Positions 35,840-50,388 of a DNA stretch of 64,000 bases are shown here, one piece after another. How positions within the stretch are numbered: the stretch's first letter is position 1; the number at the start of each line of letters is the position of its first letter. Under the pieces are notes generated by a model. That model saw only the letters and a list, made by a program, of their open reading frames with translations. It ran no database searches and was not told the DNA's origin. The stretch covers positions 1 through 64,000 of the forward strand of contig JAHBTI010000009.1 in the NCBI GenBank assembly GCA_019638705.1. The letters are read 5' to 3'. The stretch is from Bacteroidota bacterium (GTDB taxonomy: Bacteria > Bacteroidota > Bacteroidia > B-17B0 > Aurantibacillaceae). The translations under genes and the position numbers were made by a program.

Positions 35840-35924
35840 AAAAAAATGCCCCGTATTGGAAGACGAGGCGGCTTAAATGTTTTCACAACGGAATAATCCT
35901 TATTGTGATTTGCTTTAAAATGTA
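35840..35924 (-). ncRNA. tracrRNA of the type II-C CRISPR system
   Basis: On the - strand, the anti-repeat lies at 35924-35902. Its complement ATTGTGATTTGCTTT matches 14 of 15 bases of the repeat start GTTGTGATTTGCTTT, and the next AAAATGTA also matches after a 1-nt gap. A short nexus-like hairpin (AAGGATTATTCC) follows. Then comes the terminator stem GCCTCGT/ACGGGGC with a seven-T run at 35846-35840. Read-through would allow an outer 12-bp stem, AAACATTTAAGC (35882-35871) with its complement at 35839-35828, that encloses the terminator. The transcript runs divergently from cas9. It is essential for crRNA loading in type II systems. Confidence 0.88.
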
Positions 35925-35977: not shown

Positions 35978-38900
35978 ATGAAAAAGATTTTAGGATTGGA
36001 TTTAGGGACAAACTCAATTGGCTGGAGTTTAATTGAACAAGATTTTGAAAACAAGACAGGTAAAATACTTGGCTTGGGAAGTCGCATTATTCCTATGGAC
36101 GAAAGTATCAAAGGAGATTTTGGGAAAGGTAATTCTGTTTCTCAAACTGCCGACAGAACGAAATATAGAAGTGCACGCCGTAGATATGAACGAAATCATC
36201 TTCGCCGAGAACGTTTACACAGAATGCTGAATATATTGGGATTTTTGCCCGAACACTATGCAAATGACATTGACTTTGAGAAACGTTTCGGAAAATTTAA
36301 AGATGAAACAGAAACCAAATTAGTTTGGAAGAAAAACGGGAAAAAAGAAAATGGAAAAGATAAATTTGAGTTTGCTTTTCAATCAACATTTAAAGAAATG
36401 CTGAACGAGTTCAAGAAATCTCAACCGGACTTATTGAACAAGAAAAACAAAAAAGGCGAAGAATATAAAATCCCTTACGATTGGACAATTTACTACCTGC
36501 GTAAAAAAGCATTAACGCAATCAATCACAAAGGGGGAATTAGCTTGGCTGATTTTAAATTTTAATCAAAAACGTGGGTATTATCAGTTGCGGGGCGAGGA
36601 AGAAGAAGAAAACCCAAACAAATTAGTTGAGTTTTATTCTTTAAAAATTGTTGATGTAAAAGCTGACGAACAAAAAGGCAAAAAAGATGAAATTTGGTAC
36701 TCTTTAATTTTGGAAAATGGTTGGATTTATCGCCGTTCGAGTAAAACACCTTTGTTTGATTGGAAAGATAAAGTACGAGATTTTATTGTAACAACCGATT
36801 TAAACAATGACGGAACAATAAAAAAAGATAAAGATGGCGTTGAAAAACGTAGTTTTCGTGCGCCAAGCGAAGACGATTGGACTTTACTAAAAAAGAAAAC
36901 TGAACAAGATATCGACAAGTCGCACAAAACCGTTGGCACTTACATCTACGATACTTTACTTCAAAATCCAAAACAAAAAATAAACGGAAAATTAGTTCGC
37001 ACTATTGAACGGAAATTTTACAAAGATGAATTAAGAAAAATTCTCAAAAAACAAATTGAACTGCAACCCGAATTGTTTAAAGATAAATACAACGATTGCA
37101 TTCGTGAATTATATCGCAATAACGAAGCTCACCAACTTACATTGAGCAAAAGAGATTTTGTGCATTTGTTTTTAGATGATATTATTTTCTATCAACGTCC
37201 GTTACGCAGTCAAAAATCGTCTATCGGAAATTGTGCTTTAGAATACAGATTGCACAAAATCAATAAAAAAGATGAAAACGGAAAAGAAATTGAAGTAAAA
37301 GAATATTTAAAAGCTATTCCAAAATCCAATCCCTACTATCAGGAATTTAGAATTTGGCAATGGATAAAAAATTTAAGTATTTACAAAAAAGAAGACGATA
37401 GCAATGTAACTGCCCAATTTTTGAACAGCACAGAAGATTATGAACAACTGTTTGAGTTCTTAAACAACCGAAAAGAAATTGAGCAAAAACCTTTGATAAA
37501 ATTCTTGCTTGAACAAAAACAATCGAAATTAAAATCTAAAGAACTAAATGCTGAAACAGAAAAATATCGTTGGAATTTTGTTGAAGACAAAAAATATCCG
37601 TGCAACGAAACCAAAACACAAATTGTAACACGGCTTGGAAAAGTTACTAATGTTCCTGCTAATTTCTTAACCGCAGAAATTGAGCAACAATTGTGGCACA
37701 TTATTTATTCAGTTACCGACAAAATTGAATTTGAAAAAGCATTAAAATCTTTTGCAAACAAACATAAAATTGATGAAATATCTTTTGTAGAAAACTTCAA
37801 AAAATTTCCACCATTCAAAAGCGAATACGGCTCTTATTCCGAAAAAGCGATTAAAAAATTGTTGCCGTTAATGCGTTTAGGAAAGTATTGGAGTTTTGAA
37901 GCTATTGACAAAAGAACAAAAGAGCGAATTGAAAAAATTATTACAGGAGAATTTGACGAAAACATCAAAACTCGTGTGCGCGAAAAAGCCATTCACTTAA
38001 CCGAAGAAAAACATTTTCAAGGTTTGCCATTGTGGTTGGCGGGTTATGTTGCGTACGACAAACATTCAGAAGCAAGCGACATTCGTCAATGGAAATCGGC
38101 GCAAGAATTAGAAAACTATTTAGAAGAATTTAAACAACACTCGTTACGCAACCCAATAGTGGAGCAAGTTGTAACAGAAACTTTGCGTGTGGTAAAAGAT
38201 ATTTGGCAACATTACGGCAACGGTGCACAAAACTTCTTTGATGAAATTCATATTGAGTTGGGGCGTGAAATGAAAAATACTGCTGACGAACGCAAACGTT
38301 TAACTAACATAGTTAGCGAAAACGAAAATACCAATCTTCGTATCAAGGCTTTGATAATGGAATTGAAAGAAAATTCTGACGGAAAATTGTCGGTAGAAGA
38401 TGTTCGTCCGTATTCACCAATACAACAAGAGGCATTAAAAATATACGAAGACGGTGTAATAAATTCTAACATTGAAATCCCTGATGATATTGTAAAAATC
38501 AGCAAATCGGCGCAACCTACAAAAGCTGAATTGACACGCTATAAATTGTGGTTAGAACAAAAGTACCGTTCGCCATACACAGGCGAAATAATTCCGTTGA
38601 ACAAATTATTTACTGCCGATTACCAAATAGAACACATTATTCCGCAAAGTCGTTATTTTGACGATAGTTTTAATAACAAAGTAATTTGCGAAGCAGCCGT
38701 AAATAAACAAAAGGATAACCAACTTGGGTTAGAGTTTATCAAAAATCATAAAGGCGAAATTTTGGACACAAACTTTGGTAAGAAAGTAAAAGTATTTACC
38801 GAAGATGAATACAAAGATTTTGTAAAAGAACATTACGGTAAAAATAATCGTAAACGTAACAATTTATTGTTAGAAGAAATTCCCGAAAAAATGATTGAAC

Positions 38901-40414
38901 GGCAACTAAACGACACACGCCACATTAGTAAGTTTATTATGTCGGTGCTTTCAAATATTGTGCGTGCCGATACAAACGATGACGGAGTAAATTCAAAAAA
39001 TATTATTCCGTGCAATGGCAAAATTACCGACCGTTTAAAGCAAGATTGGGGATTGAACGATGTGTGGAATGAATTGATTTTACCACGTTTTGAGCGAATG
39101 AATACATTAAGCAATTCGCAAAAATTTACTTCAAAAAACACAAACGGAAAAATAATTCCGACTGTTCCTTTAGAACTTTCAAAAGGTTTTCAAAAGAAAC
39201 GCATTGACCACCGCCACCACGCAATGGACGCATTGGTGATTGCTTGTGCCACACGCGACCACGTTAATTTGTTAAACAACCAATCTGCAAAATCTGACAA
39301 TTCAAGATTTGATTTGCAAAATAAATTGCGCCACAAAGAAAAGTGGCAAGACAACAACGGAAAAGAAAGAGATAAATTTACCGAGTTTAAAAAGCCTTGG
39401 GAAAATTTTACCGTTGATGTAAAAAATGAATTAGAAAAAATTGTTGTCAGCTTCAAACAAAATCTACGTGTCATCAATAAAGCAACTAATCATTATGAGA
39501 AAATTGAAAATGGTAAGAAAGTAGAAGCCGAACAAAAAGGCGTGAATTGGGCAATTCGTAAACCAATGCACAAAGAAACCGTTTCAGGTAAAGTTGAGTT
39601 GCCAAGAATAAAAGTTCCTAAAGGAAAAATTTTAACTGCAACAAGAAAAAGTATTGATACAAGTTTTGATTTAAAAACCATTGAAGCCATTACCGATACA
39701 GGTATTCAAAAAATTCTAAAAAATTATTTAAAAACAAAAGGCAATAATCCTGAATTAGCGTTTTCACCTGAAGGTCTTGAAGATTTGAACAAAAACATTG
39801 CTCAATACAACGATGGCAAAGCACACCAACCCATTTACAAAGCAAGAATTTTTGAAACGGGAAGCAAATTTCCTTTAGGACAAACAGGAAATAAAAAAAC
39901 AAAGTTTGTAGAAGCAGCTAAAGGCACAAATCTTTTCTTTGCCGTTTATCAAGACGAAAACGGCAAACGAAGTTTTGAAACCATTCCTTTAAACATTGTT
40001 ATAGAACGCCAAAAACAAGGTTTAAATTCTGTTCCTGATAGAAATGAAAAAGGTGATAATCTGTTATTTCATCTTTCACCAAATGATTTGGTTTATGTGC
40101 CAACAGAAGAAGAAAGAGAAAATTCATCACCAATTGATTTTAGTAGTTTGACGAAAGAGCAAAGAAACAGAATTTATAAGTTTACTGACGGTAGTGGTGT
40201 TATGGCAAACTTCATTCTTGTGAACATTGCTAATGTGTTGTTCAATATGAATAAAGATAAGCAGAAGAAAGCAGGTATGGATTATCCTATTCAAAACGAA
40301 ATTGGAGTTGGTTCGCAAGGGTCAAAAAATGAAAATGCCTTTACAGGAGAACAAATAAAATCCGTTTGTATCAAAGTAAAAGTAGATAGATTAGGAAATA
40401 TTTCAAAAGCGTAA
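35978..40414 (+). CDS. cas9: CRISPR-associated endonuclease Cas9, type II-C
   Basis: RNA-guided DNA endonuclease of 1478 residues, large for subtype II-C but in the range of Bacteroidota versions. All catalytic positions are present: RuvC-I Asp8 (GLDLGTNSIGW), RuvC-II Glu760 (IHIELGREM), HNH His886 (YQIEHIIPQ), RuvC-III His1081 and Asp1084 (HRHHAMDAL). The Arg-rich bridge helix follows RuvC-I (residues ~64-90, RRRYERNHLRRERLHRML). First gene of the cas operon. No csn2 or cas4 is present, which with the repeat and tracrRNA type gives II-C. Confidence 0.97.
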   Translation: MKKILGLDLGTNSIGWSLIEQDFENKTGKILGLGSRIIPMDESIKGDFGKGNSVSQTADRTKYRSARRRYERNHLRRERLHRMLNILGFLPEHYANDIDFEKRFGKFKDETETKLVWKKNGKKENGKDKFEFAFQSTFKEMLNEFKKSQPDLLNKKNKKGEEYKIPYDWTIYYLRKKALTQSITKGELAWLILNFNQKRGYYQLRGEEEEENPNKLVEFYSLKIVDVKADEQKGKKDEIWYSLILENGWIYRRSSKTPLFDWKDKVRDFIVTTDLNNDGTIKKDKDGVEKRSFRAPSEDDWTLLKKKTEQDIDKSHKTVGTYIYDTLLQNPKQKINGKLVRTIERKFYKDELRKILKKQIELQPELFKDKYNDCIRELYRNNEAHQLTLSKRDFVHLFLDDIIFYQRPLRSQKSSIGNCALEYRLHKINKKDENGKEIEVKEYLKAIPKSNPYYQEFRIWQWIKNLSIYKKEDDSNVTAQFLNSTEDYEQLFEFLNNRKEIEQKPLIKFLLEQKQSKLKSKELNAETEKYRWNFVEDKKYPCNETKTQIVTRLGKVTNVPANFLTAEIEQQLWHIIYSVTDKIEFEKALKSFANKHKIDEISFVENFKKFPPFKSEYGSYSEKAIKKLLPLMRLGKYWSFEAIDKRTKERIEKIITGEFDENIKTRVREKAIHLTEEKHFQGLPLWLAGYVAYDKHSEASDIRQWKSAQELENYLEEFKQHSLRNPIVEQVVTETLRVVKDIWQHYGNGAQNFFDEIHIELGREMKNTADERKRLTNIVSENENTNLRIKALIMELKENSDGKLSVEDVRPYSPIQQEALKIYEDGVINSNIEIPDDIVKISKSAQPTKAELTRYKLWLEQKYRSPYTGEIIPLNKLFTADYQIEHIIPQSRYFDDSFNNKVICEAAVNKQKDNQLGLEFIKNHKGEILDTNFGKKVKVFTEDEYKDFVKEHYGKNNRKRNNLLLEEIPEKMIERQLNDTRHISKFIMSVLSNIVRADTNDDGVNSKNIIPCNGKITDRLKQDWGLNDVWNELILPRFERMNTLSNSQKFTSKNTNGKIIPTVPLELSKGFQKKRIDHRHHAMDALVIACATRDHVNLLNNQSAKSDNSRFDLQNKLRHKEKWQDNNGKERDKFTEFKKPWENFTVDVKNELEKIVVSFKQNLRVINKATNHYEKIENGKKVEAEQKGVNWAIRKPMHKETVSGKVELPRIKVPKGKILTATRKSIDTSFDLKTIEAITDTGIQKILKNYLKTKGNNPELAFSPEGLEDLNKNIAQYNDGKAHQPIYKARIFETGSKFPLGQTGNKKTKFVEAAKGTNLFFAVYQDENGKRSFETIPLNIVIERQKQGLNSVPDRNEKGDNLLFHLSPNDLVYVPTEEERENSSPIDFSSLTKEQRNRIYKFTDGSGVMANFILVNIANVLFNMNKDKQKKAGMDYPIQNEIGVGSQGSKNENAFTGEQIKSVCIKVKVDRLGNISKA

Positions 40415-40460
40415 AATGAACTTGTTCCTAAAATGGCACGGGTTGAAAACAGAAAATATT

Positions 40461-40838
40461 ATGAACGAAATAGAAATATACAAATCGTCAGATAATAAGA
40501 TTGAATTACAAGTCAATCTTGATAAGGAAACAGTATGGTTAAATCGTCATCAATTGGCTACATTATTTAACAGAGATGTTAAAACTATTGGAAAACACAT
40601 TAATAATGTGTTTGAAGAGGGAGAATTAGAGAAAAAAGTGGTTGTCGCAAAATTTGCGACAACCACTCAACATGGTGCTATTGTTGGAAAAACTCAAATT
40701 AAAGAAACTGAATACTATAATCTTGATGTAATCATTTCTGTAGGTTATCGTGTGAAGTCCAAACAAGGTACTCAATTCAGAATTTGGGCAACTAATCGTT
40801 TGAAAGATTCTACTTTAAACATTAAATCCGCAGCGTAA
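40461..40838 (+). pseudogene. Truncated RhuM-family gene inside the cas operon
   Basis: 125 residues aligning with the N-terminal DNA-binding-like RhuM domain of the next gene (MNEIEIYKSSDNKIELQV against MNEIAIYKSADNKVEVSV; ISVGYRVKSKQGTQFRIWATNRLK against ISVGYRVNSKRGTQFRQWATNRLK). Homology stops after TNRLK; nine unrelated residues follow to the stop, so the Fic half is gone. An ATG at 40416, 1 bp after cas9, would add 15 residues; alignment to the paralogue favours 40461. It may be a remnant or a stand-alone N-terminal domain that modulates the full-length paralogue. It contains a 15-bp inverted repeat (40637-40667). Confidence 0.7.
40637..40667. repeat. Perfect 15-bp inverted repeat inside the truncated RhuM gene
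   Basis: AGTGGTTGTCGCAAA (40637-40651), one central A (40652), then the exact reverse complement (40653-40667). It is in frame and encodes VVVAKFATTT. The centre is the third base of codon 64 counted from 40461. Confidence 0.9.
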
Positions 40839-40840
40839 TT

Positions 40841-41812
40841 ATGAATGAAATCGCAATATACAAATCAGCGGATAATAAAGTAGAAGTATCCGTACAAATG
40901 GATAAAGAAACCGTTTGGCTTTCGCAAAAAATAATGGCGGAATTATTTGATAAAGACAGCGACACAATAGGCTTACATCTAAAAAATATATATTCAGAAG
41001 GTGAATTAGAGGAAAAATCAACTACCGAGTATTTCTCGGTAGTTCAAAAAGAAGGGAGCAGAAGTGTAAAAAGAAAGGTTAAATTTTACAACCTTGATGC
41101 TATAATATCTGTTGGCTATCGTGTAAATTCTAAACGCGGAACGCAATTCCGCCAATGGGCTACCAACCGCTTAAAAGAATATTTAATTCAAGGTTATTCT
41201 ATCAACCAAAAACGCTTAGATGAATTACACCAAACCGTTCAGCTCATTCAAAAATCTATTGGTGAAGAAACAAATTTAAAAGAAGCAAAAGGCTTATTGG
41301 AAATTATTTCTAATTACACCCAAAGTTTTGTGTTGCTTAACAAATACGACAGTAATTCCATTGAAACACAAAAGCTGAATGAAAATGTTACTTACGAAAT
41401 AAGTTATAACGAAGCAAAATCAGCTATTGCTGAATTGAAATCGCAACTCGTTAAACAAAAAGAAGCAACCGATTTATTCGGTAACGAAAAAGACAAAAGT
41501 TTTTCGGGCATATTACAAAGCATCGTACAAACTTTTGGCGGGCAATATTTGTACACAAGCATTGAAGAACAAGCCGCTCACCTGCTCTATTTTGTTATTA
41601 AAAATCATCCGTTTAGTGACGGAAACAAACGCATTGGCGCATTTTTGTTTGTGTGGTTTTTAGAAAAAAATAAACACCGTTTTAAAAAATCGGGCGAAGT
41701 AAAAATAAACGACAACGGTTTGGTTGCATTGGCTTTGTTGGTTGCACAAAGTAATCCCGCCGAAAAAGATTTAATGATAAAACTCATTACGCAATTAATC
41801 AATAGCCAATAA
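40841..41812 (+). CDS. RhuM-Fic fusion protein inside the cas operon
   Basis: 323 residues. The N-terminal RhuM domain (~1-110) is followed by a helical linker and a Fic domain with the active-site motif HPFSDGNKR (His256-Arg264). In Fic proteins His is the catalytic base for transferring a nucleotide part or phosphate to a target. The Lys in GNKR is as in Doc kinases rather than the GNGR of AMPylating Fic proteins, so the chemistry is open. It starts 2 bp after the truncated paralogue and ends 4 bp before cas1, so it is translated as part of the cas operon. RhuM-Fic proteins are usually seen as solitary or toxin-like genes. A possible role is toxin, guard or regulator tied to CRISPR (inference). 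Confidence 0.85.
   Translation: MNEIAIYKSADNKVEVSVQMDKETVWLSQKIMAELFDKDSDTIGLHLKNIYSEGELEEKSTTEYFSVVQKEGSRSVKRKVKFYNLDAIISVGYRVNSKRGTQFRQWATNRLKEYLIQGYSINQKRLDELHQTVQLIQKSIGEETNLKEAKGLLEIISNYTQSFVLLNKYDSNSIETQKLNENVTYEISYNEAKSAIAELKSQLVKQKEATDLFGNEKDKSFSGILQSIVQTFGGQYLYTSIEEQAAHLLYFVIKNHPFSDGNKRIGAFLFVWFLEKNKHRFKKSGEVKINDNGLVALALLVAQSNPAEKDLMIKLITQLINSQ
41020..41044. repeat. 10-bp inverted repeat inside the RhuM-Fic gene
   Basis: AACTACCGAG (41020-41029), 5-nt loop TATTT, then CTCGGTAGTT (41035-41044). It encodes STTEYFSVV. Its centre is the third base of codon 64, the same codon as in the truncated paralogue, but the sequence differs. Confidence 0.88.
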
Positions 41813-41816
41813 TCCA

Positions 41817-42725
41817 ATGATTAAGCAAACTCTTTATTTCGGAAATCCTGCTTATTTGCGATTAAAAGATAAGCAACTAAGTTTTGAAATCACCATAAAT
41901 GGCGAAACCAAATTTCAAACAAGAGCCGTAGAAGATATAGGAATAATCATCATTGACAATCCGCAAATAACCATTACCAGCGGATTAATTCAAGCCTTGC
42001 AGGAAAACAATGTTGCGATTGTTACTTGCGATTACAAACACATGCCGCAAAGCGTGCTTCTGCCAATTGAAGGAAATAAAACGCAGCAAGAGCGATACGA
42101 AGCTCAACTCGCGGCAAGTGAACCTTTGAAAAAACAACTGTGGGCGCAAACTGTTACGCAAAAAATAAAAAATCAAGCGGCAATTTTGGACAGTTTTTTA
42201 ATCAAATCCGATTACTTAATTCCGCTATATAAAAACGTAAAAAGCGGCGACAGCGATAATTGCGAAGCTACTGCGGCTGCTTATTATTGGAAAAATATTT
42301 TTTCGCACGTTCCCGATTTTGTGCGCATACCACAAGAAAAAGAATATAGCGCACCAAATAATTATTTGAATTACGGCTACACTATTTTGCGCGCTACTAT
42401 GGCGCGAAGCATTGTAGGCGCAGGGCTGTTGCCTACTCTCGGCATTTTTCACCGAAGCCGCTACAATGCGTTTTGTTTGGCTGATGATTTAATGGAACCT
42501 TATCGCCCTTATGTGGACGAAATTGCTTATCGCATGATAAATGAATTTGGTTTGATAAACGACATGACGACCGAACACAAAAAAGTGTTGCTTGAAATTC
42601 CGAGAATAGATGTAATAATTGAGGGAGAAAAAAGTCCGCTGATGATTGCTACGCAACGGACAGCAGTAAGTTTGGTGAAATGCTACATGGGTGAACAGCG
42701 AAAACTAACATATCCCGAAAAATGA
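41817..42725 (+). CDS. cas1: CRISPR adaptation integrase Cas1 (type II)
   Basis: 302 residues. Catalytic subunit of the Cas1-Cas2 spacer integrase. The metal-binding triad is visible: Glu150 (NCEATAAAYYW), His212 (LGIFHRSRYNAF) and Glu227 (ADDLMEPYRP). The N-terminal beta-sheet domain is intact (TLYFGNPAYLRLKDKQLSFEI). It lies between the RhuM-Fic gene and cas2 in the operon. Confidence 0.96.
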   Translation: MIKQTLYFGNPAYLRLKDKQLSFEITINGETKFQTRAVEDIGIIIIDNPQITITSGLIQALQENNVAIVTCDYKHMPQSVLLPIEGNKTQQERYEAQLAASEPLKKQLWAQTVTQKIKNQAAILDSFLIKSDYLIPLYKNVKSGDSDNCEATAAAYYWKNIFSHVPDFVRIPQEKEYSAPNNYLNYGYTILRATMARSIVGAGLLPTLGIFHRSRYNAFCLADDLMEPYRPYVDEIAYRMINEFGLINDMTTEHKKVLLEIPRIDVIIEGEKSPLMIATQRTAVSLVKCYMGEQRKLTYPEK

Positions 42726-42743: not shown

Positions 42744-43094
<351 letters not shown>

Positions 43095-43106
43095 AATAAC
43101 AGAAAT

Positions 43107-43133
43107 AAAAAAATCGCCCAGAAGAGCGATTTT
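43107..43133. terminator. Bidirectional terminator between cas2 and the array
   Basis: AAAATCGC (43110-43117) pairs with GCGATTTT (43126-43133). Read on the - strand it is followed by seven T residues, so it should stop array transcripts running toward cas2. Read on the + strand it ends the cas operon less strongly. Confidence 0.8.
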
Positions 43134-43208
43134 AGTACTGATAAACCTGATTTTTTCTTTGTAAAAACAACATACTTTCCTTTATTGGCAAGCATTTTAG
43201 CTATGTAT
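43134..43208. other. Leader-like AT-rich region next to the first repeat
   Basis: 75 bp between the terminator and repeat 1, without a gene. By position next to cas2 and next to intact repeats it may be the adaptation leader; the degenerate last repeat at the opposite end (50352) supports this. Polarity of spacer acquisition is not proven by sequence alone. Confidence 0.45.
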
Positions 43209-44245
43209 GTTGTTTATCAATAAGTCAAAGATACATTTTGAAAGCAAATCACAACCAAATGCATCAGTATAACATACTGTAGTTTGTTGTTTATCAATAA
43301 GTCAAAGATACATTTTGAAAGCAAATCACAACCGCACACCTGCTTGCGCGACAGTTTGCGGAGTTGTTTATCAATAAGTCAAAGATACATTTTGAAAGCA
43401 AATCACAACTATGTGGTAAATGTGTTCCATGAAAACAACGTTGTTTATCAATAAGTCAAAGATACATTTTGAAAGCAAATCACAACGAATTTCATTAGCT
43501 ATAGCCAAACGAGCGCGTTGTTTATCAATAAGTCAAAGATACATTTTGAAAGCAAATCACAACGTATCTTAGCGTATTCCGTGCCTACCGCGCGTTGTTT
43601 ATCAATAAGTCAAAGATACATTTTGAAAGCAAATCACAACTCTACAATGGTTAGAAGATTTAAAACTAAAGTTGTTTATCAATAAGTCAAAGATACATTT
43701 TGAAAGCAAATCACAACACACAATCACAACAGGGCAACAAGCAAGCGGTTGTTTATCAATAAGTCAAAGATACATTTTGAAAGCAAATCACAACTCGCTC
43801 CAACATCTATTGGCAAGGGTGCTAGTTGTTTATCAATAAGTCAAAGATACATTTTGAAAGCAAATCACAACTTTCCGCTGCTCATTAATTGCAGGTAGTC
43901 AGTTGTTTATCAATAAGTCAAAGATACATTTTGAAAGCAAATCACAACCCTGCTGGGCGGATTATCAGTAGGAATTTTGTTGTTTATCAATAAGTCAAAG
44001 ATACATTTTGAAAGCAAATCACAACCTCGTTTTATCTTGTCGTTTTTAAAAGTGTGTTGTTTATCAATAAGTCAAAGATACATTTTGAAAGCAAATCACA
44101 ACATTAACGCTTTTATATCTACAAAAGTTTTTGTTGTTTATCAATAAGTCAAAGATACATTTTGAAAGCAAATCACAACGATATGCTTAACAGAAAATTA
44201 TTTTAAAACGTTGTTTATCAATAAGTCAAAGATACATTTTGAAAG
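43209..44245 (-). CRISPR. CRISPR array, cas-proximal part (13 full repeats plus a split one)
   Basis: 47-bp repeats begin at 43209 and recur exactly every 77 bp to 44210, with thirteen 30-bp spacers. Written on the - strand the repeat starts GTTGTGATTTGCTTTC and ends GATAAACAAC, the Bacteroides-type II-C repeat. All full copies look identical. The fourteenth repeat keeps only its first 36 + strand bases (44210-44245) and then meets the mobile element. Every repeat carries TTG-N18-TATCTTTG on the - strand, a promoter for the spacer next to it. Together with the tracrRNA this sets the - strand as the crRNA strand. Confidence 0.97.
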
Positions 44246-44255
44246 GTAATCATAA
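44229..44255. other. attL junction of the integrative element
   Basis: Repeat-derived AAGATACATT, core TTGAAAG (44239-44245), then element-derived GTAATCATAA. The element-derived arm is an inverted, 9-of-10 match to the element-derived arm at the other end. Confidence 0.85.
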
Positions 44256-44343
44256 AAACCTTTGAAAGCCTTATAAATACTGTATTTTTATTTTCATGGG
44301 TAACAAAATAGTACCAAAAGTGCCAAATTTCACCACATTCATT

Positions 44344-44703
44344 TTAACTCGCCTGCAAAAACAATTCGGCAGGCAGATGAAAGTAATCTTTTAACCGCGT
44401 TGCCATTTTCAAAGTTAATTCCCTACGTCCTGAAAGGATTGATGAAACATAACTTTTGCTACCAATAATTGGTTCAAGGTCTTTGTTCTTTATTCCCTGT
44501 TCCTGCATTTTGTCTTTAATAATTTCTAACACGTCCACTTCGGGCATTTTTACTGTACGGTCTTCATAGTCTTTTATCAATAAAAGCAACACGCCCAATT
44601 CATCGTCTTCGGGTGTGTTCGGTTCGGCATGAAAAATTTCCATTGCACGTTTTACAGCTTTCTTATGCTCGCTTGCTGTTTTTATAACTTTCCAAGTATT
44701 CAT
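44344..44703 (-). CDS. higA: HigA-family antitoxin
   Basis: 119 residues. The C-terminal XRE-type HTH is visible (IKDKMQEQGIKNKDLEPIIG, SYVSSILSGRRELTLKMATRLKDYF). The N-terminal half (EDDELGVLLLLIKDYEDRTVKMP) is the toxin-binding part of the HigA/COG5499 family. It lies 2 bp after higB, the reverse order (toxin first) typical of HigBA. It neutralises HigB and represses the operon. Within the element it would select for retention. Confidence 0.88.
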   Translation of the reverse strand: MNTWKVIKTASEHKKAVKRAMEIFHAEPNTPEDDELGVLLLLIKDYEDRTVKMPEVDVLEIIKDKMQEQGIKNKDLEPIIGSKSYVSSILSGRRELTLKMATRLKDYFHLPAELFLQAS

Positions 44704-44705
44704 TT

Positions 44706-45017
44706 TTACAAATTAAGATTATACGGTACGGTTGCCACATTTATTTTATCATATTCTTTGTGCGTGCCAAACCAAATTGTGTAACAAGCACGCCGCCTGA
44801 AATTCATTGATACAACTAACCTAAACTCATTCCCCTTAATGTTAAACACCACTCTTTGGTTATTAACCAAACTTGCATTACCGTACATTTCCTTTAGCTC
44901 ATTAAAGTTTGCAAAATCTTCTTTCAGCATTTCATTATACCATGCAAGTAATTGTTTCTTTGCTTTGGGAAATTTTTTTGTGTAGTAAATAATCGTTTTA
45001 CGGTTAATGATATTCAC
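44706..45017 (-). CDS. higB: HigB-family toxin (mRNA interferase)
   Basis: 103 residues starting from a GTG. The start is supported by alignment to the family opening (MxIIxxKxI...FPxAxxxLxxWYxE). Conserved core NNQRVVFNIKGNEFRLVVSMNFRRRACYTIWFGTHKEYDKI includes the basic catalytic residues. Ribosome-dependent mRNA cleavage is the known role. First gene of the higBA pair. Confidence 0.88.
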   Translation of the reverse strand: MNIINRKTIIYYTKKFPKAKKQLLAWYNEMLKEDFANFNELKEMYGNASLVNNQRVVFNIKGNEFRLVVSMNFRRRACYTIWFGTHKEYDKINVATVPYNLNL

Positions 45018-45036
45018 AGCACAAAGATAATAAAAA

Positions 45037-45053
45037 GTTTACAAATTGTAAAC
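45037..45053. promoter_or_regulatory. Probable HigA operator
   Basis: GTTTACAA-A-TTGTAAAC is a perfect 8-1-8 palindrome just upstream of higB. It precedes a - strand TATCTTTG (45029-45022) that could be the -7 box, although that box is very close to the GTG start. Confidence 0.55.
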
Positions 45054-45145
45054 CCTTTATGGGATTTTTTTCCATTTCACATTTACACGCGCCCGCGCCC
45101 GCCCATGCGTACCATGCGCGTATTAGTTGCATTTTCACTTTTAGA

Positions 45146-45496
45146 CTAAGTGTATTTTTTGTTTTGCAGCTTGGCAGTAATAAATTTCAATGTATCAATT
45201 TGCAGTTTAGTTGCCCGCCAAAAGTTGCTTTTTTGCTCGCTACTCATAGTCTTTAACAATTCCTTGTTTTGTAAATTCAAGGTGAGCCTTATTAGCTCAG
45301 CTTTAAACAAATCAATTTGCAGTTCGCGGGCTTGGTTATATTCACGCTGCAAACGTGCGCTATTGTTTAACCAATTATAAAACGTGCGGGACGTTATGCC
45401 GTGCTTTTGGCAAACTGAATTAAGTCCGTTTTGTGTGGTAGCTATATCATTACAAATACTGCTAAATAATTTCTGTGTAAATTTTGTTTGTGTCAT
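45146..45496 (-). CDS. Phage terminase small subunit-like HTH protein
   Basis: 116 residues from the ATG at 45496 (an alternative start at 45553 adds a basic stretch). The N-terminal HTH (LNSVCQKHGITSRTFYNWLNNSARLQREYNQARELQ) and the C-terminal helices (SEQKSNFWRATKLQIDTLKFITAKLQ) match small terminase proteins of the Sf6/Nu1-like type, which recognise pac or cos DNA. In the element no large terminase or structural gene is present. A satellite could use such a protein to redirect a helper phage packaging machine. A plain HTH regulator remains possible. Confidence 0.6.
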   Translation of the reverse strand: MTQTKFTQKLFSSICNDIATTQNGLNSVCQKHGITSRTFYNWLNNSARLQREYNQARELQIDLFKAELIRLTLNLQNKELLKTMSSEQKSNFWRATKLQIDTLKFITAKLQNKKYT

Positions 45497-45562
45497 TTGT
45501 TTGTTTTTTATCGGTAGGTTTGTTTTAAGCCTTGCACGCGCGTATGTGTGCAAATTGTTTCT

Positions 45563-46540
45563 TTAACGGTAGTGTTTTCTTGCTTCATTCACTTTCTTGT
45601 CTAACTCCAAAATCAACTCATTAGGCGCGTTTATAGCCGCGTTTGTGTTTACTGCTTTAGTTATTGCCGCCCGAATATCAAATGCCATTTTTTTGCTTAA
45701 TTGTTTTGTTTGCTGAGCGGTTTGTATTTGTTCCATTAAAGCAAGTTCGCTACCGTTGTTTTTTATGTGCTCTAAAATGAGTAGTGTGTAAAAATCTTTT
45801 TTTGTTTTCATAAATTCAAAGTTAAGCCCTATTTCATTTTGTTTTCTGATTGCTTGGTATGCTTCAAACCACTTGTTAATAACGCCTATATAAAAATCTT
45901 CATTGTACAGCATTGCTGCCGTTACACCTGTGCAGTTAAACATTTTGTAAAGACGGCTAATGAAACGGTGTTCAATTCTCAAAAGGTTTCTACCTGTGTA
46001 AAGTTTTGGGATTAATTTTCCTTTGTCTTTTTGCTCTTTCAACTTGTCATAAAAAATAAAGTGTTCATTCTTGCCATAGTAATAAAGGCTGCCCCGTTCA
46101 TCGGTGGCACGTCTAAACTGTTTTCTGTTTAAGAGCATTTGTCCCAAGTAAGAGAAATAAATTTCAGGGGAATACTGCATACAAAAATTTTGTGCCAAGT
46201 CTATACGGTACATTCTTGCCAAGTCTAAGTTTAAATGCAGCGTGTCCGATAACGCGCCGATAGCGTTTTGTGTTTCCTGCCTTGTCAGCGTTTCTAAATT
46301 GTTTCCAAAATGGTATTTACACAAACTTCCATTTCTCAAATTTATTCCCAAGCTACTTACTGTTACTTCAAAATAATTCTTGTCTGCCGTGTCGCCCAAA
46401 GTTCCTTTTATGATTGTTCCACTTTCAAAATTTATTTGTTCGGCTGTGTCCAAATATTGTGGTACATCTTCCAAGAAATTAACGTTTGAAACATCTGTAC
46501 TTCTTAATCCAAAATTCAAATTATCATACATAAATATCAT
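45563..46540 (-). CDS. Phage/plasmid replication initiator, gpII/X-like
   Basis: 325 residues starting MIFMYDNLNFGLRS (a second ATG at 46531 gives MYDNLNF). The layout resembles replication proteins of the filamentous-phage gpII/X family: an N-terminal nuclease-like region with a YRIDLAQNF segment, then LLRIEHRF near residue 190 in place of the family's ILR.E.R motif. Such proteins nick a double-strand origin and start rolling-circle replication. The family call is from pattern memory, without an alignment. It would let the excised element replicate. Confidence 0.55.
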   Translation of the reverse strand: MIFMYDNLNFGLRSTDVSNVNFLEDVPQYLDTAEQINFESGTIIKGTLGDTADKNYFEVTVSSLGINLRNGSLCKYHFGNNLETLTRQETQNAIGALSDTLHLNLDLARMYRIDLAQNFCMQYSPEIYFSYLGQMLLNRKQFRRATDERGSLYYYGKNEHFIFYDKLKEQKDKGKLIPKLYTGRNLLRIEHRFISRLYKMFNCTGVTAAMLYNEDFYIGVINKWFEAYQAIRKQNEIGLNFEFMKTKKDFYTLLILEHIKNNGSELALMEQIQTAQQTKQLSKKMAFDIRAAITKAVNTNAAINAPNELILELDKKVNEARKHYR

Positions 46541-46647
46541 TTATCTTTTGTTGTTACTTTGTTTGTTATGGTTACTAAATCAGTAACCCATTACACCTTA
46601 TTAAAGAAAATTATAAAAAGGGCGAGTGTAACCCCGCCCCTTTTTTG

Positions 46648-47124
46648 TCAGGATTTGGCAGCCGCTTTGTTTCTTAGCGTTTCAATTTCAGCGTTCAATT
46701 CACCGTCTAAAAACAAATTGCCGATTGTGTTTTTGTTGAATTTTTTACCGCGTGCCACAAATATTTCTACCGTTGCACCGTCTTTAATTCTGCCGTCTGC
46801 CTCTCTACTAAAATTTGTAAATACAAACATTAATAAATCGGTAGTGCCTTTCATATCCCCATACGCTACACCACTATTTACATCGGCTTGGAACACACTT
46901 GTAATATGTATGCCTGCACCGCTTGTTATTGTGGTGTCGCCTTTCCTTTGGCGGGCAGCTTTTATGTGGTCGGTAAAATGTTGAACATACAAAAATTGTT
47001 CGCCTTTTTTGTTCTTTTGAATTTCTAAAGGCTGATAGCTTTGTGTACTTTGTGTACAATCTAAGCGGTGTTTGCTTTTTTGGTTTGGCAATTTTTCAAA
47101 CCTTAATAAATCTGTCAAATCCAT
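46648..47124 (-). CDS. Unknown protein of the integrative element
   Basis: 158 residues, hydrophilic, mixed alpha/beta, with no membrane segment. The ATG overlaps the stop of the HTH gene by one base (TAATG), so the two are translationally coupled, and the Rep gene follows. In rolling-circle phages a single-strand DNA-binding protein often neighbours Rep. That role is possible but I see no motif for it. It is also a candidate anti-CRISPR by context only. Confidence 0.6.
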   Translation of the reverse strand: MDLTDLLRFEKLPNQKSKHRLDCTQSTQSYQPLEIQKNKKGEQFLYVQHFTDHIKAARQRKGDTTITSGAGIHITSVFQADVNSGVAYGDMKGTTDLLMFVFTNFSREADGRIKDGATVEIFVARGKKFNKNTIGNLFLDGELNAEIETLRNKAAAKS

Positions 47125-47420
47125 TATGCACCCCCTTTTTTACCTGTTACTACATAGGTTGCCGCCTCAGCTTCAATTTCAGCGTTGGTTTTAACGCGGT
47201 GCTTTAAACACCATGCTGTTAGCTCTGACTTGTCAAAGTAGGTTATCTTCCCACCGTCCGATTTATAGTAAGGGATTTCTTTTAACATCACTTTTTTGTA
47301 CAAGTGTGATTTTGATAAGCCTGTTAAAATTGCCGCCTCACTCATAGTGAGGGCTTGTTTTGCAGAAAGCACAGTTAGTTTTTTTAGTTCCTGCAATTCA
47401 TTTAAAATTTGATTTTCCAT
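47124..47420 (-). CDS. Excisionase-like helix-turn-helix protein
   Basis: 98 residues. The MerR-type HTH_17 motif LTMSEAAILTGLSKSHLYKKVMLKEIPYYK.DGGKITYFDKSEL is the Bacteroidota excisionase/DNA-binding family. Usually directs the integrase toward excision or regulates the element. Preceded by a structured non-coding stretch (47421-47625). Confidence 0.8.
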   Translation of the reverse strand: MENQILNELQELKKLTVLSAKQALTMSEAAILTGLSKSHLYKKVMLKEIPYYKSDGGKITYFDKSELTAWCLKHRVKTNAEIEAEAATYVVTGKKGGA

Positions 47421-47449
47421 TTTATTTTTTGTTATGGATTAGTGCCGTT

Positions 47450-47506
47450 GGTAGAACGTGCAAGCATTCTACCGCCGTGCCTTGTTTTCAGCGTGGCGGC
47501 TTGCAC
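47450..47506. other. Structured non-coding region in the element, possible origin or regulatory RNA
   Basis: GGTAGAA/TTCTACC hairpin at 47450-47473. Inside its loop, GTGCAAGC (47458-47465) can alternatively pair with GCTTGCAC (47499-47506), and CCGCC/GGCGG segments pair between. It is more GC-rich than its surroundings. It may be a rolling-circle origin or a 5' leader structure of the HTH gene. The rest of 47421-47625 shows no gene. Confidence 0.4.
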
Positions 47507-47625
47507 TCTCACCGCGCTGAATACAAAAACAAATTTGAAACAAATCAGAAAATAAAAAACCCTATGTAGGGCATACATAGGGGTAACATAGGGGCTGAAA
47601 GGTGCAGTATTACTGCTATTTATTA

Positions 47626-48351
47626 CTATTTGGTTTTTGGTTTTGGCTTTTCATACTTCAAAATTTCATCAATTATTTTATAACCTTTTGGCAGTCCTCT
47701 TTTATCATTTTTCCGCTCGCTAATACTAAGTGATATTTTTCTTGCTTCTACATTAACAAATCCATTTGTTTTTTTGTCTTTTACAACAAACAGATTTTCA
47801 AAAGGTGCTATTTGCAAATTTTTACCGTCTTTAAGTTTCAATACTTCATTTGCTACATCTACAAAATAGGCAAGCAATGATTTTGTTTTTAACCACTTCA
47901 AAGGGCTGTCGGTTGTTTTTTCAATAAAACTTTTATCTGCTAATGCCTGCAAAATTCCTTTATCTGCCAACGCCTGCAAAATATTATCGGGGATTGTTAG
48001 CTGTTCGGTTTGATTTTGTTGCTGAGGTGGTGCAAGTTTCTCAGGCTGCCATTTTGGGTAATACTCTGTAAAAAGCCGTGATATATTTGCTATTTTAGTT
48101 TGAGTGCCGTGATTATTTTTTACTAAATACCTATTGAATAGTATTTGTTCTTGCTCTGTTAATCCACCCACGAACATACTTTCCAACTTTTCTAACACAA
48201 TTTCCAACTTATCTGAAATTTCTTTGTTCTGTTCAAATACAGAATAATCACCTGTAATACCTGCAATACTTTCAAGTTCAGGTAACATCTGAAGTAACTT
48301 TCCTATTTGGACTAATTTTGAACTTTTCATGTTGTTTATTTTAGTATTCAT
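47626..48351 (-). CDS. Unknown protein of the integrative element with an internal duplication
   Basis: 241 residues. N-terminal half helical; residues ~120-145 contain a tandem duplication (NILQALADK, GILQALADK). The C-terminal half (SPLKWLKTKSLLAYFVDVANEVLKLKDG, APFENLFVVKD) resembles a module seen in Bacteroidota mobile-element proteins of the RteC kind, where it has no known catalytic role. No function is assigned. It lies between the integrase and the HTH gene. Confidence 0.6.
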   Translation of the reverse strand: MNTKINNMKSSKLVQIGKLLQMLPELESIAGITGDYSVFEQNKEISDKLEIVLEKLESMFVGGLTEQEQILFNRYLVKNNHGTQTKIANISRLFTEYYPKWQPEKLAPPQQQNQTEQLTIPDNILQALADKGILQALADKSFIEKTTDSPLKWLKTKSLLAYFVDVANEVLKLKDGKNLQIAPFENLFVVKDKKTNGFVNVEARKISLSISERKNDKRGLPKGYKIIDEILKYEKPKPKTK

Positions 48352-48407
48352 TTTTCTTTCAATTCCTTTTCAATAAACTTTTGATATTGTTTGTAATCAA
48401 AAATATT

Positions 48408-49559
48408 TTACAAGTGGTTTAAAGTATCTACCGCTTTCATCAAACTTTCATCTAACACCTCAGCATAAATTTGTGTTACCTGTATTGATGAATGCCCTAA
48501 CTGTTTACTTATTGTTTCAATCGGCACACCCTTAGAAAGTAACAAAGTAGCGTTGGTGTGTCGGGCAACGTGAAAAGTTACTTTTTTGTTTATACCCGCC
48601 TTTGCAGCCCATAGACTTAAAAAAATGTTTGTATAGCCGTTGTTAGGAATATCAAAAACAAAATCGGTATCGGCTGCCGTGTGTGGGCGTGGGGGCAAAT
48701 AAGTTGCTGCCTTATCTGATACTTGGGTGTATTGTGGTTTGTCGGTTTTTTGCTGCCTGTACACATAAAGCCAACGTCCGTTAATATGCTGTAATTTTTC
48801 CCAAGTAATAGCTTTCACATCTGAAAATCTTAAACCTGTGTAGCAACAAAACAGAAAAGCATTTTTTACCTGTGGTTTGGTGCAGTCGGTTTGCTCTAAT
48901 TTTTTTACTTCATCGGCAGTCAAAAAATTTATGTGTGTTTCTTGCTTGGTAGGTTTGTCTTTAATTTTTTTGAGTGGATTGTGGATTATTATTTCATCGT
49001 CAATAGCCGCGTTTAAAATTGCCTCTAAGGTCTTAATATAGCTTAGTATGGTGTTTGGGTTAAGCGGCTCATTATTTCTTTGGCTTCGGGCTTGTTTTAA
49101 GTAGCTGATGAAGTTGTTACAAAATGCTTTGTCAATTTGTTTAAACGTTGTTTTGTTGCCTGCAAATTGGTCTAAGTGGAAAATAAGTGTTTTGTAAATT
49201 AGAAATGTGCCGCGTTCGCTGCCCGCCGCTTTTTGTTTTTTAACCTCAGCGCGGTGTTTGCAGTATTCAATAAAGTTTGCATTTGATTTTTTCCTATTGT
49301 TTTGCAAACCATGTACCGCGTTGTTAAGGTCAATAATACGCTGTGCTTTTATAGCGGTTGCCGTTTGTAATGTTTCCTTGTTTTGCAGCTTGGCGGCGGG
49401 GGTACGCTCAGGGATTAAATGAAGTTTCAAAAATTCATAGGCTCTTATGCCGTCTTTGTAACTATCTAAATAGATACTTTTGTTACCGTTGGCAAGGGGT
49501 TTAAACCTCAGTCTTATCGGTTCTTTGGGCGCGGCTGCCCTTTTCCTTTTGGTACTCAT
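48408..49559 (-). CDS. int: Tyrosine site-specific integrase
   Basis: 383 residues from the ATG at 49559. The N-terminal SAM-like core-binding domain covers about residues 95-200. The catalytic domain has all active-site residues: Arg244 (TGLRFSD), Lys271 (QQKTDK), His330 and Arg333 (HVARHT), His356 (LGHSS) and Tyr365 (TQIYAEV). It recombines attP with attB, here a CRISPR repeat. It stands at one end of the element and is transcribed inward from the right end, as usual. Confidence 0.93.
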   Translation of the reverse strand: MSTKRKRAAAPKEPIRLRFKPLANGNKSIYLDSYKDGIRAYEFLKLHLIPERTPAAKLQNKETLQTATAIKAQRIIDLNNAVHGLQNNRKKSNANFIEYCKHRAEVKKQKAAGSERGTFLIYKTLIFHLDQFAGNKTTFKQIDKAFCNNFISYLKQARSQRNNEPLNPNTILSYIKTLEAILNAAIDDEIIIHNPLKKIKDKPTKQETHINFLTADEVKKLEQTDCTKPQVKNAFLFCCYTGLRFSDVKAITWEKLQHINGRWLYVYRQQKTDKPQYTQVSDKAATYLPPRPHTAADTDFVFDIPNNGYTNIFLSLWAAKAGINKKVTFHVARHTNATLLLSKGVPIETISKQLGHSSIQVTQIYAEVLDESLMKAVDTLNHL

Positions 49560-49685
49560 TACAAGTGCTTTTTTGTTACCCGACAAAGCTAAAGCATAAT
49601 AACAACCCAACAAAGGAAAGGTATTATATTTATGATTATCTTTTAAACAAACCAATTATTTGCATTTCAACACATTATTAACACA

Positions 49686-49771
49686 GTAACAAGTTTTTCA
49701 TAGAAAATGAGGTTAAAATTTTGTTACTCGGTAGTGTTTTTGACTGTGAGTAACAAAAAAAGTAACAAAAT
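49686..49771. repeat. Repeated GTAACAA motifs, candidate integrase arm sites
   Basis: GTAACAA occurs at 49686, 49750 and 49762 on the + strand and at 49727-49718 on the - strand. One copy of the 10-mer GTAACAAAAT also stands near the other end at 44300-44309. Clustering at both element ends, close to the core sites, is what arm-type integrase binding sites look like. The gap 49560-49918 contains no gene. Confidence 0.45.
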
Positions 49772-49830
49772 TTAGCCTAACATCGGTAAAGCAACTGATA
49801 ACAAATAGTGTTGAAAGTCGGGCATAAAAC

Positions 49831-49858
49831 AAAAAAATCCACCTGAAAGGTAGATTTT
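49831..49858 (-). terminator. Terminator facing the right half of the array
   Basis: On the - strand a stem AAAATCtACCT/AGGTgGATTTT (one mismatch) is followed by T residues (AAAAAAA at 49831-49837 on the + strand). It would stop crRNA transcripts that enter the element from 49919 onward. Confidence 0.6.
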
Positions 49859-49908
49859 ATTAGCATTTTTATAGTTCTTTTATTCTTTAGAAAGTTGAGG
49901 TTTTTGTA

Positions 49909-49935
49909 TTATGATTTCTTGAAAGCAAATCACAA
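49909..49935. other. attR junction of the integrative element
   Basis: Element-derived TTATGATTTC, core TTGAAAG (49919-49925), then repeat-derived CAAATCACAA. The repeat-derived arm, read inverted (TTGTGATTTG), matches the element arm at 8 of 10 positions. Confidence 0.85.
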
Positions 49936-50388
49936 CTGCAGGGACACGGCTATATGTGGCTAACAGGTTGTTTATCAATAAGTCAAAGATACATTTTGAA
50001 AGCAAATCACAACTCATCTCTCTCCCAATCAATACAGTTAAAAGTTGTTTATCAATAAGTCAAAGATACATTTTGAAAGCAAATCACAACCGTTGGGCTT
50101 GCGTAAGACCGCGCCACGCTGTTGTTTATCAATAAGTCAAAGATACATTTTGAAAGCAAATCACAACATAAAGGTTGTATATTTGTATCATAAAATTGTT
50201 GTTTATCAATAAGTCAAAGATACATTTTGAAAGCAAATCACAACCTGTTTGAAAGCTGTTTATAATGTTGTCCGGTTGTTTATCAATAAGTCAAAGATAC
50301 ATTTTGAAAGCAAATCACAACGTTCCACCCGTCATTGTCAATGCTTTCGGTGTTGTTTATCAATAAGTCAAAGATACATTTTGAAAGC
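49919..50388 (-). CRISPR. CRISPR array, mtaB-proximal part (half repeat, five full repeats, one truncated terminal repeat)
   Basis: It begins with the last 18 bases of the split repeat, then six 30-bp spacers separated by repeats at 49967, 50044, 50121, 50198 and 50275. The terminal copy at 50352-50388 keeps 37 bases and lacks the GTTGTGATTT end. The 77-bp period continues unchanged, so both parts were one array of 20 repeats and 19 spacers. The terminal repeat lies 3 bp from the stop codon of mtaB. Comparing by eye, I found no spacer that matches the element or the rest of the window. Confidence 0.97.

Follow-up and report, generated by a model that had tools for sequence, protein, structure and literature searches.

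Prophages of Streptococcus pyogenes reportedly integrate into CRISPR direct repeats and are said to evade immunity by doing so. Tyrosine integrases direct SGI1-type elements into a conserved gene, at the 3′ end of mnmE (thdF); the likeness to the element family described here is tyrosine-integrase insertion at conserved genes, whereas gene content and host are unrelated. Two citing articles likewise describe prophages that integrate into direct repeats of CRISPR loci (PMC10359306; PMC10651486, referring to Varble et al. 2021, S. pyogenes). Type II-C arrays of Flavobacterium encode promoters in their repeats and are transcribed toward the leader (PMC8092290), and both parts of a II-C array split by IS256 are actively transcribed (PMC10309648).

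We analyzed a 64,000-nt stretch of Bacteroidota DNA (the window, on contig C48; the genome comprises 3.22 Mb in 48 contigs, and one genome per species was used) in which a 5.7-kb element lies inside a CRISPR repeat. As in S. pyogenes, a mobile element is inserted in a CRISPR direct repeat; the present case differs in that the element is of the Int/Rep kind, has no recognized structural genes of phages, and sits in a II-C array of Bacteroidota, with minimal predicted disruption. As in Flavobacterium psychrophilum CN46, a mobile element divides a Bacteroidota II-C array, but IS256 is a DDE transposase insertion whereas the window's element points to site-specific recombination in the repeat (PMC10309648). 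Integration into CRISPR repeats is thus already known; element type, CRISPR subtype, phylum, and predicted neutrality differ here, and the case adds to the streptococcal prophages a small, unrelated Int/Rep element in another subtype and another phylum.

A putative type II-C array split within one repeat

The array and its surroundings comprise the following features:

35902–35923, minus strand: candidate tracrRNA anti-repeat just upstream of cas9 (ATTGTGATTTGCTTTAAAATGT on the plus strand)
35978–40414, plus strand: cas9 (TIGR01865)
41817–42725, plus strand: cas1 (TIGR03639)
42750–43094, plus strand: cas2 (TIGR01573)
43095–43208: probable leader, separating cas2 from the array (partly conserved beside cas2 in four related genomes)
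43209–44209, minus strand: leader-proximal array part; 13 repeats, 13 spacers; crRNA sense is the minus strand
44210–44245: attL; repeat positions 1–36, ending in the overlap TTGAAAG (44239–44245); keeps the −7 box TATCTTTG, lacks the −33 TTG
49919–49936: attR; overlap TTGAAAG (49919–49925) and repeat positions 37–47; in crRNA sense the complete 18-nt tracrRNA-pairing tag GTTGTGATTTGCTTTCAA
49937–50388, minus strand: leader-distal array part; six spacers, five intact repeats, truncated terminal repeat (50352–50388)

The presence of cas9, cas1, and cas2, together with TTG-N18-TATCTTTG in the repeats, suggests type II-C, for which cas9-cas1-cas2 lacking csn2 and cas4, and promoters carried by the repeats, are the defining features. 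The crRNA sense was assigned from the tracrRNA match and from the TTG-N18-TATCTTTG pattern in each intact repeat. The leader candidate is best conserved in G008 and more weakly in the other related genomes; the opposite flank of the array is not conserved. Genes for RhuM and RhuM-Fic (40416–41812) separate cas9 from cas1; neither lies between these genes in G021.

The array holds 19 spacers, 18 intact 47-bp repeats (GTTGTTTATCAATAAGTCAAAGATACATTTTGAAAGCAAATCACAAC), one split repeat, and one truncated terminal repeat. Repeats recur every 77 bp from 43209 and again from 49967, and the sole break in phase is a step of 5,757 bp (77 + 5,680). The original prediction that one repeat had been cut into 44210–44245 and 49919–49936 with TTGAAAG in both pieces proved correct to the base: the left piece is repeat positions 1–36 and the right piece positions 30–47. 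Identity at the junctions is exactly 7 bp, with differing outward neighbors (T/C before, G/C after). Removal of 44246–49925 (5,680 bp) restores a perfect repeat in the 77-bp phase, again as predicted. All 18 intact repeat copies in the whole genome lie in this array; because TTGAAAGCAAATCAC occurs 19 times genome-wide, every time in the same array, the split copy is unique in the genome.

Broken or isolated repeats were also seen elsewhere. The terminal repeat at the leader-distal end is split in G132 (L121:8708–8802, ∼46 nt) and in G021 (L076:9247–9333, ∼41 nt); in G132 the break comes exactly behind CTTTCAA, where the insertion in the window also lies. A lone exact 47-bp repeat lies between two genes at L053:1501–1547 (G050:C23), with no array there.

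Gene content of the inserted element

All eight genes of the element are on the minus strand:

48408–49559, minus strand: tyrosine integrase (Arm-DNA-bind_5, Phage_int_SAM_5, Phage_integrase)
47626–48351, minus strand: 241-aa protein (no family match)
47124–47420, minus strand: HTH_17 protein, excisionase-like (PF12728; phrog_66 excisionase/regulator)
46648–47124, minus strand: 158-aa protein, p158 (conserved within the element family)
45563–46540, minus strand: replication protein (Rep), Phage_CRI/G2P, filamentous-phage type (PF05144, E 2.4e-14; family alignment)
45146–45553, minus strand: small HTH protein resembling terminase small subunits (PF20901; phrog_1482)
44706–45017, minus strand: HigB-like toxin of a toxin–antitoxin pair (PF09907; PD-Lambda-2_A in PADLOC)
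44344–44703, minus strand: HigA-like HTH antitoxin (PF01381)

The 5.68-kb insert had been said to carry a complete tyrosine integrase, and the gene is indeed intact: the catalytic Arg, His-x-x-Arg, His, and Tyr align with those of five relatives. The HTH_17 protein is 62% identical to its counterpart in a related element, L137. Structure prediction for Rep was poor (mean pLDDT 50.7). The PD-Lambda-2 defense system is defined by a HigB-like A protein and a full-length B protein; the pair at 44344–45017 has the former, and the HigA-like antitoxin matches only residues 1 through 120 of the 402-residue PD-Lambda-2_B model. Likewise, of the features that define inoviruses, the element has the Phage_CRI-type Rep, and no family of Zot-like morphogenesis ATPases or coat proteins was found in it. 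Its genes include no recognized relaxase, conjugation, capsid, tail, or portal family, and the terminase-small-subunit-like protein is the sole phage-like structural hint. The whole-element DNA gave no match to phages and a match to plasmids over the HigB gene only, and the viral contigs searched held no relatives of the integrase. The junction pattern TTGAAAGGTAATCATAA matched viral contigs four times, in no case continuing into the element's end sequence.

Attachment-site anatomy

Four further features lie within the ends of the element:

44246–44260, plus strand: P′ core-type arm GTAATCATAAAAACC (inverted match to the P arm, 9/10)
44300–44308, plus strand: GTAACAAAA arm-type motif near the left end
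49719–49770: cluster of three GTAACAAAA motifs near the right end (49719, minus; 49750, plus; 49762, plus)
49899–49918, minus strand: P core-type arm GGTTTTTGTATTATGATTTC (inverted match to P′; 8/10 against the repeat's own arm CAAATCACAA)

Joining the two ends rebuilds attP as GGTTTTTGTATTATGATTTC-TTGAAAG-GTAATCATAAAAACC. The two arms match in inverted orientation at 9 of 10 bases, and a match of at least 8/10 is reached by ∼0.1% of random positions in the window. On the host side, the repeat arm CAAATCACAA adjoining the overlap agrees with one of the attP arms in 8 of 10 bases; the opposite arm, AATGTATCTT, fits the core motif poorly. All six copies of GTAACAAAA in the 64-kb window are inside the element, and L076 and L137 likewise carry the motif close to their ends. 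Putative binding motifs of both the core and the arm type are thus present, the layout expected for a lambda-like integrase.

Relatives of the element and their targets

Homologous Int, HTH, and Rep genes in the same order are found in five related elements; L137, L138, L062, and L143 share the order Int-HTH-p158-Rep, and L076 shares Int, HTH, and Rep. The family is sparse: within the order, Rep is found in 4 of 87 genomes, and within the class in 8 of the 395 sampled. In L137, L062, and L143 the element lies directly behind the mnmE stop codon, at the 3′ end of the gene; the distal ends of L062 and L143 showed no direct repeat that stood out clearly from chance. L076 occupies tRNA-Glu (13-bp repeat) and L138 tRNA-Leu (19-bp repeat). 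These elements use single-copy gene ends, whereas the window's element uses a repeated sequence of an immune locus. Its overlap is 7 bp, against 13 and 19 bp of identity in the tRNA-using relatives. The element brings no longer copy of its target, and the repeat is therefore truly cut, not restored.

No CRISPR-located case emerged among the integrase or Rep relatives searched, nor among the five relatives with mapped sites, and 23 arrays with this half-repeat (545 intact repeats) held no second insertion; only the window's array contains an integrated element. A single insertion of this integrase is known, and use of a CRISPR target has to date been seen once. Phylogenetic analysis of 18 integrases places the window's protein in a group with that of a Porphyromonadaceae MAG and two from G280 (support 98/96), L018 and G280 providing the closest sequences; one scan of the genome collection found no integrase closer than ∼40% identity.

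The sibling element L076 of G021, suspected of a CRISPR insertion near an array, is in tRNA-Glu, ∼3.5 kb away. When attP was compared with the host's mnmE end, both strands gave an equal score, and the resemblance is ascribed to chance. At L059:1539–2966 (G084:C25), the gene for a different, 450-aa tyrosine integrase ends ∼30 bp from a lone CRISPR repeat; a second copy of its 3′ end follows after ∼1 kb, next to a 15-nt half repeat.

Predicted effect on array function

In crRNA sense the repeat reads GTTGTGATTTGCTTTCAA|AATGTATCTTTGACTTATTGATAAACAAC, where the bar marks the far edge of the overlap. Its first half (GTTGTGATTTGCTTTCAA) is predicted to pair with the anti-repeat at 35902–35923. The calculated duplex energy is −26.7 kcal/mol for the intact repeat (shuffles: mean −7.8, lowest −15.6), −20.6 kcal/mol for attR, and −11.7 kcal/mol for attL. 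The second half carries TATCTTTG, which with a TTG 18 bases upstream matches the Bacteroidota promoter pattern in 18 of 18 intact repeats; the fetched arrays yield 21 distinct repeat consensuses, and 12 of these contain TTG-N18/19-TAnnTTTG. Judged from these motifs, the cut point lies between the putative tracrRNA-pairing half, kept at attR, and the candidate −7 promoter box, kept at attL.

The spacer at 49937–49966 retains its tag via attR. The spacer at 44180–44209 would keep its −7 box and lose the −33 TTG, which the truncated terminal repeat likewise lacks. Since promoters are reported in every II-C repeat, at most one of the 19 spacers should lose part of its promoter, and nearly all should still yield crRNAs. 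The probable leader beside cas2 is untouched by the insertion, which probably costs the host almost none of its CRISPR memory. More generally, where each repeat of a II-C array has its own promoter, a cut that parts tag from promoter is predicted to be almost neutral; in leader-driven arrays the same cut should silence everything downstream, which indicates where such insertions should survive.

Origin of the insertion

The insertion and its anatomy are evident at the sequence level. We propose that a 5.7-kb replicating integrative element of Bacteroidota, with Int, an excisionase-like HTH protein, p158, a filamentous-phage-type Rep, and HigBA as cargo, was integrated by its own tyrosine recombinase. 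Strand exchange would have occurred over the 7-bp TTGAAAG common to attP and to each repeat of the host array (the crossover is inferred), with CAAATCACAA, beside the overlap, used as a core-binding arm. The repeat's modules would thereby be parted, the 18-nt tag remaining with one flanking spacer and the −7 box with the other. As the relatives use mnmE or tRNA 3′ ends, the event would be a target switch or secondary-site insertion, landing where harm is little; as no relative with a mapped site is in a CRISPR array, it seems to be a single change of target rather than a habit. Site-specific and nearly neutral integration of this kind is, as a whole, the best explanation, and we hold it with good confidence.

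Transposition by a tyrosine recombinase of relaxed specificity (Tn916/CTnDOT-like) would need little homology, so that an accidental AT-rich site would suffice and CRISPR would be irrelevant. The mere 7 bp of shared identity, the transposon-like look of imperfect inverted ends with a 7-bp duplication, and the single known insertion lend this some plausibility, but the relatives are site-specific at conserved gene ends and the repeat offers an 8/10 core arm adjoining the overlap; we regard it as possible yet doubtful. Rather unlikely, too, is a lineage specialized on CRISPR repeats that has adopted the II-C repeat, conserved across Bacteroidota, as its regular or primary multicopy attB, with insertion tolerated and the array not silenced. 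Such an element would nest in the immune locus and could settle wherever such arrays occur; the half-repeat GTTGTGATTTGCTTTCAA is common to arrays from many genera in the class, both repeat modules survive an insertion at this point, and the mnmE 3′ end of the host is intact, with no element in it. Against it stands the lack of a second case, both in the 23 arrays and among the integrase and Rep relatives searched.

The idea that the element integrates to disable the array draws on the report for S. pyogenes prophages, a different system. It is improbable here: none of the array's spacers matches the element with up to six mismatches, the array keeps its leader end together with 13 spacers whose repeats are intact, the promoters lie in the repeats, and no anti-CRISPR-like gene was recognized in the element. 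Repeat arrays are prone to misassembly and this genome is in 48 contigs, yet a chimera is very unlikely given a matched att core at both ends, correctly placed arms and arm-type motifs, and spacers that are unique and all different across the two sides. Integrase-driven insertion with a CRISPR repeat as attB, the core of the original prediction, is thus well supported by the 7-bp overlap, the inverted core sites, the GTAACAAAA motifs, the intact Int, and sibling elements of the same gene order. Its two extensions fared otherwise: habitual targeting of CRISPR repeats is not supported, given five mapped relatives at mnmE 3′ ends or tRNA genes and occupancy of 1 array in 23, and weakened immunity finds no support, since the repeat's two modules are parted but present and II-C arrays are reportedly transcribed from every repeat.

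Repeat-like units in viral contigs

Five IMG/VR viral contigs contain a single, solitary exact copy of the 18-nt tag GTTGTGATTTGCTTTCAA followed by a divergent 3′ part (L079:2053–2070, L081:2289–2306, L083:2244–2261, L085:4206–4223, and L088:5953–5970). A solitary tag is also present in viral contigs L082 and L084, in the latter just 5′ of a tRNA-like sequence. Several of the solitary viral units are ∼46 to 47 nt long with a repeat-like end (..ACAAC); these units resemble the solitary repeat units described as RNA anti-CRISPRs.
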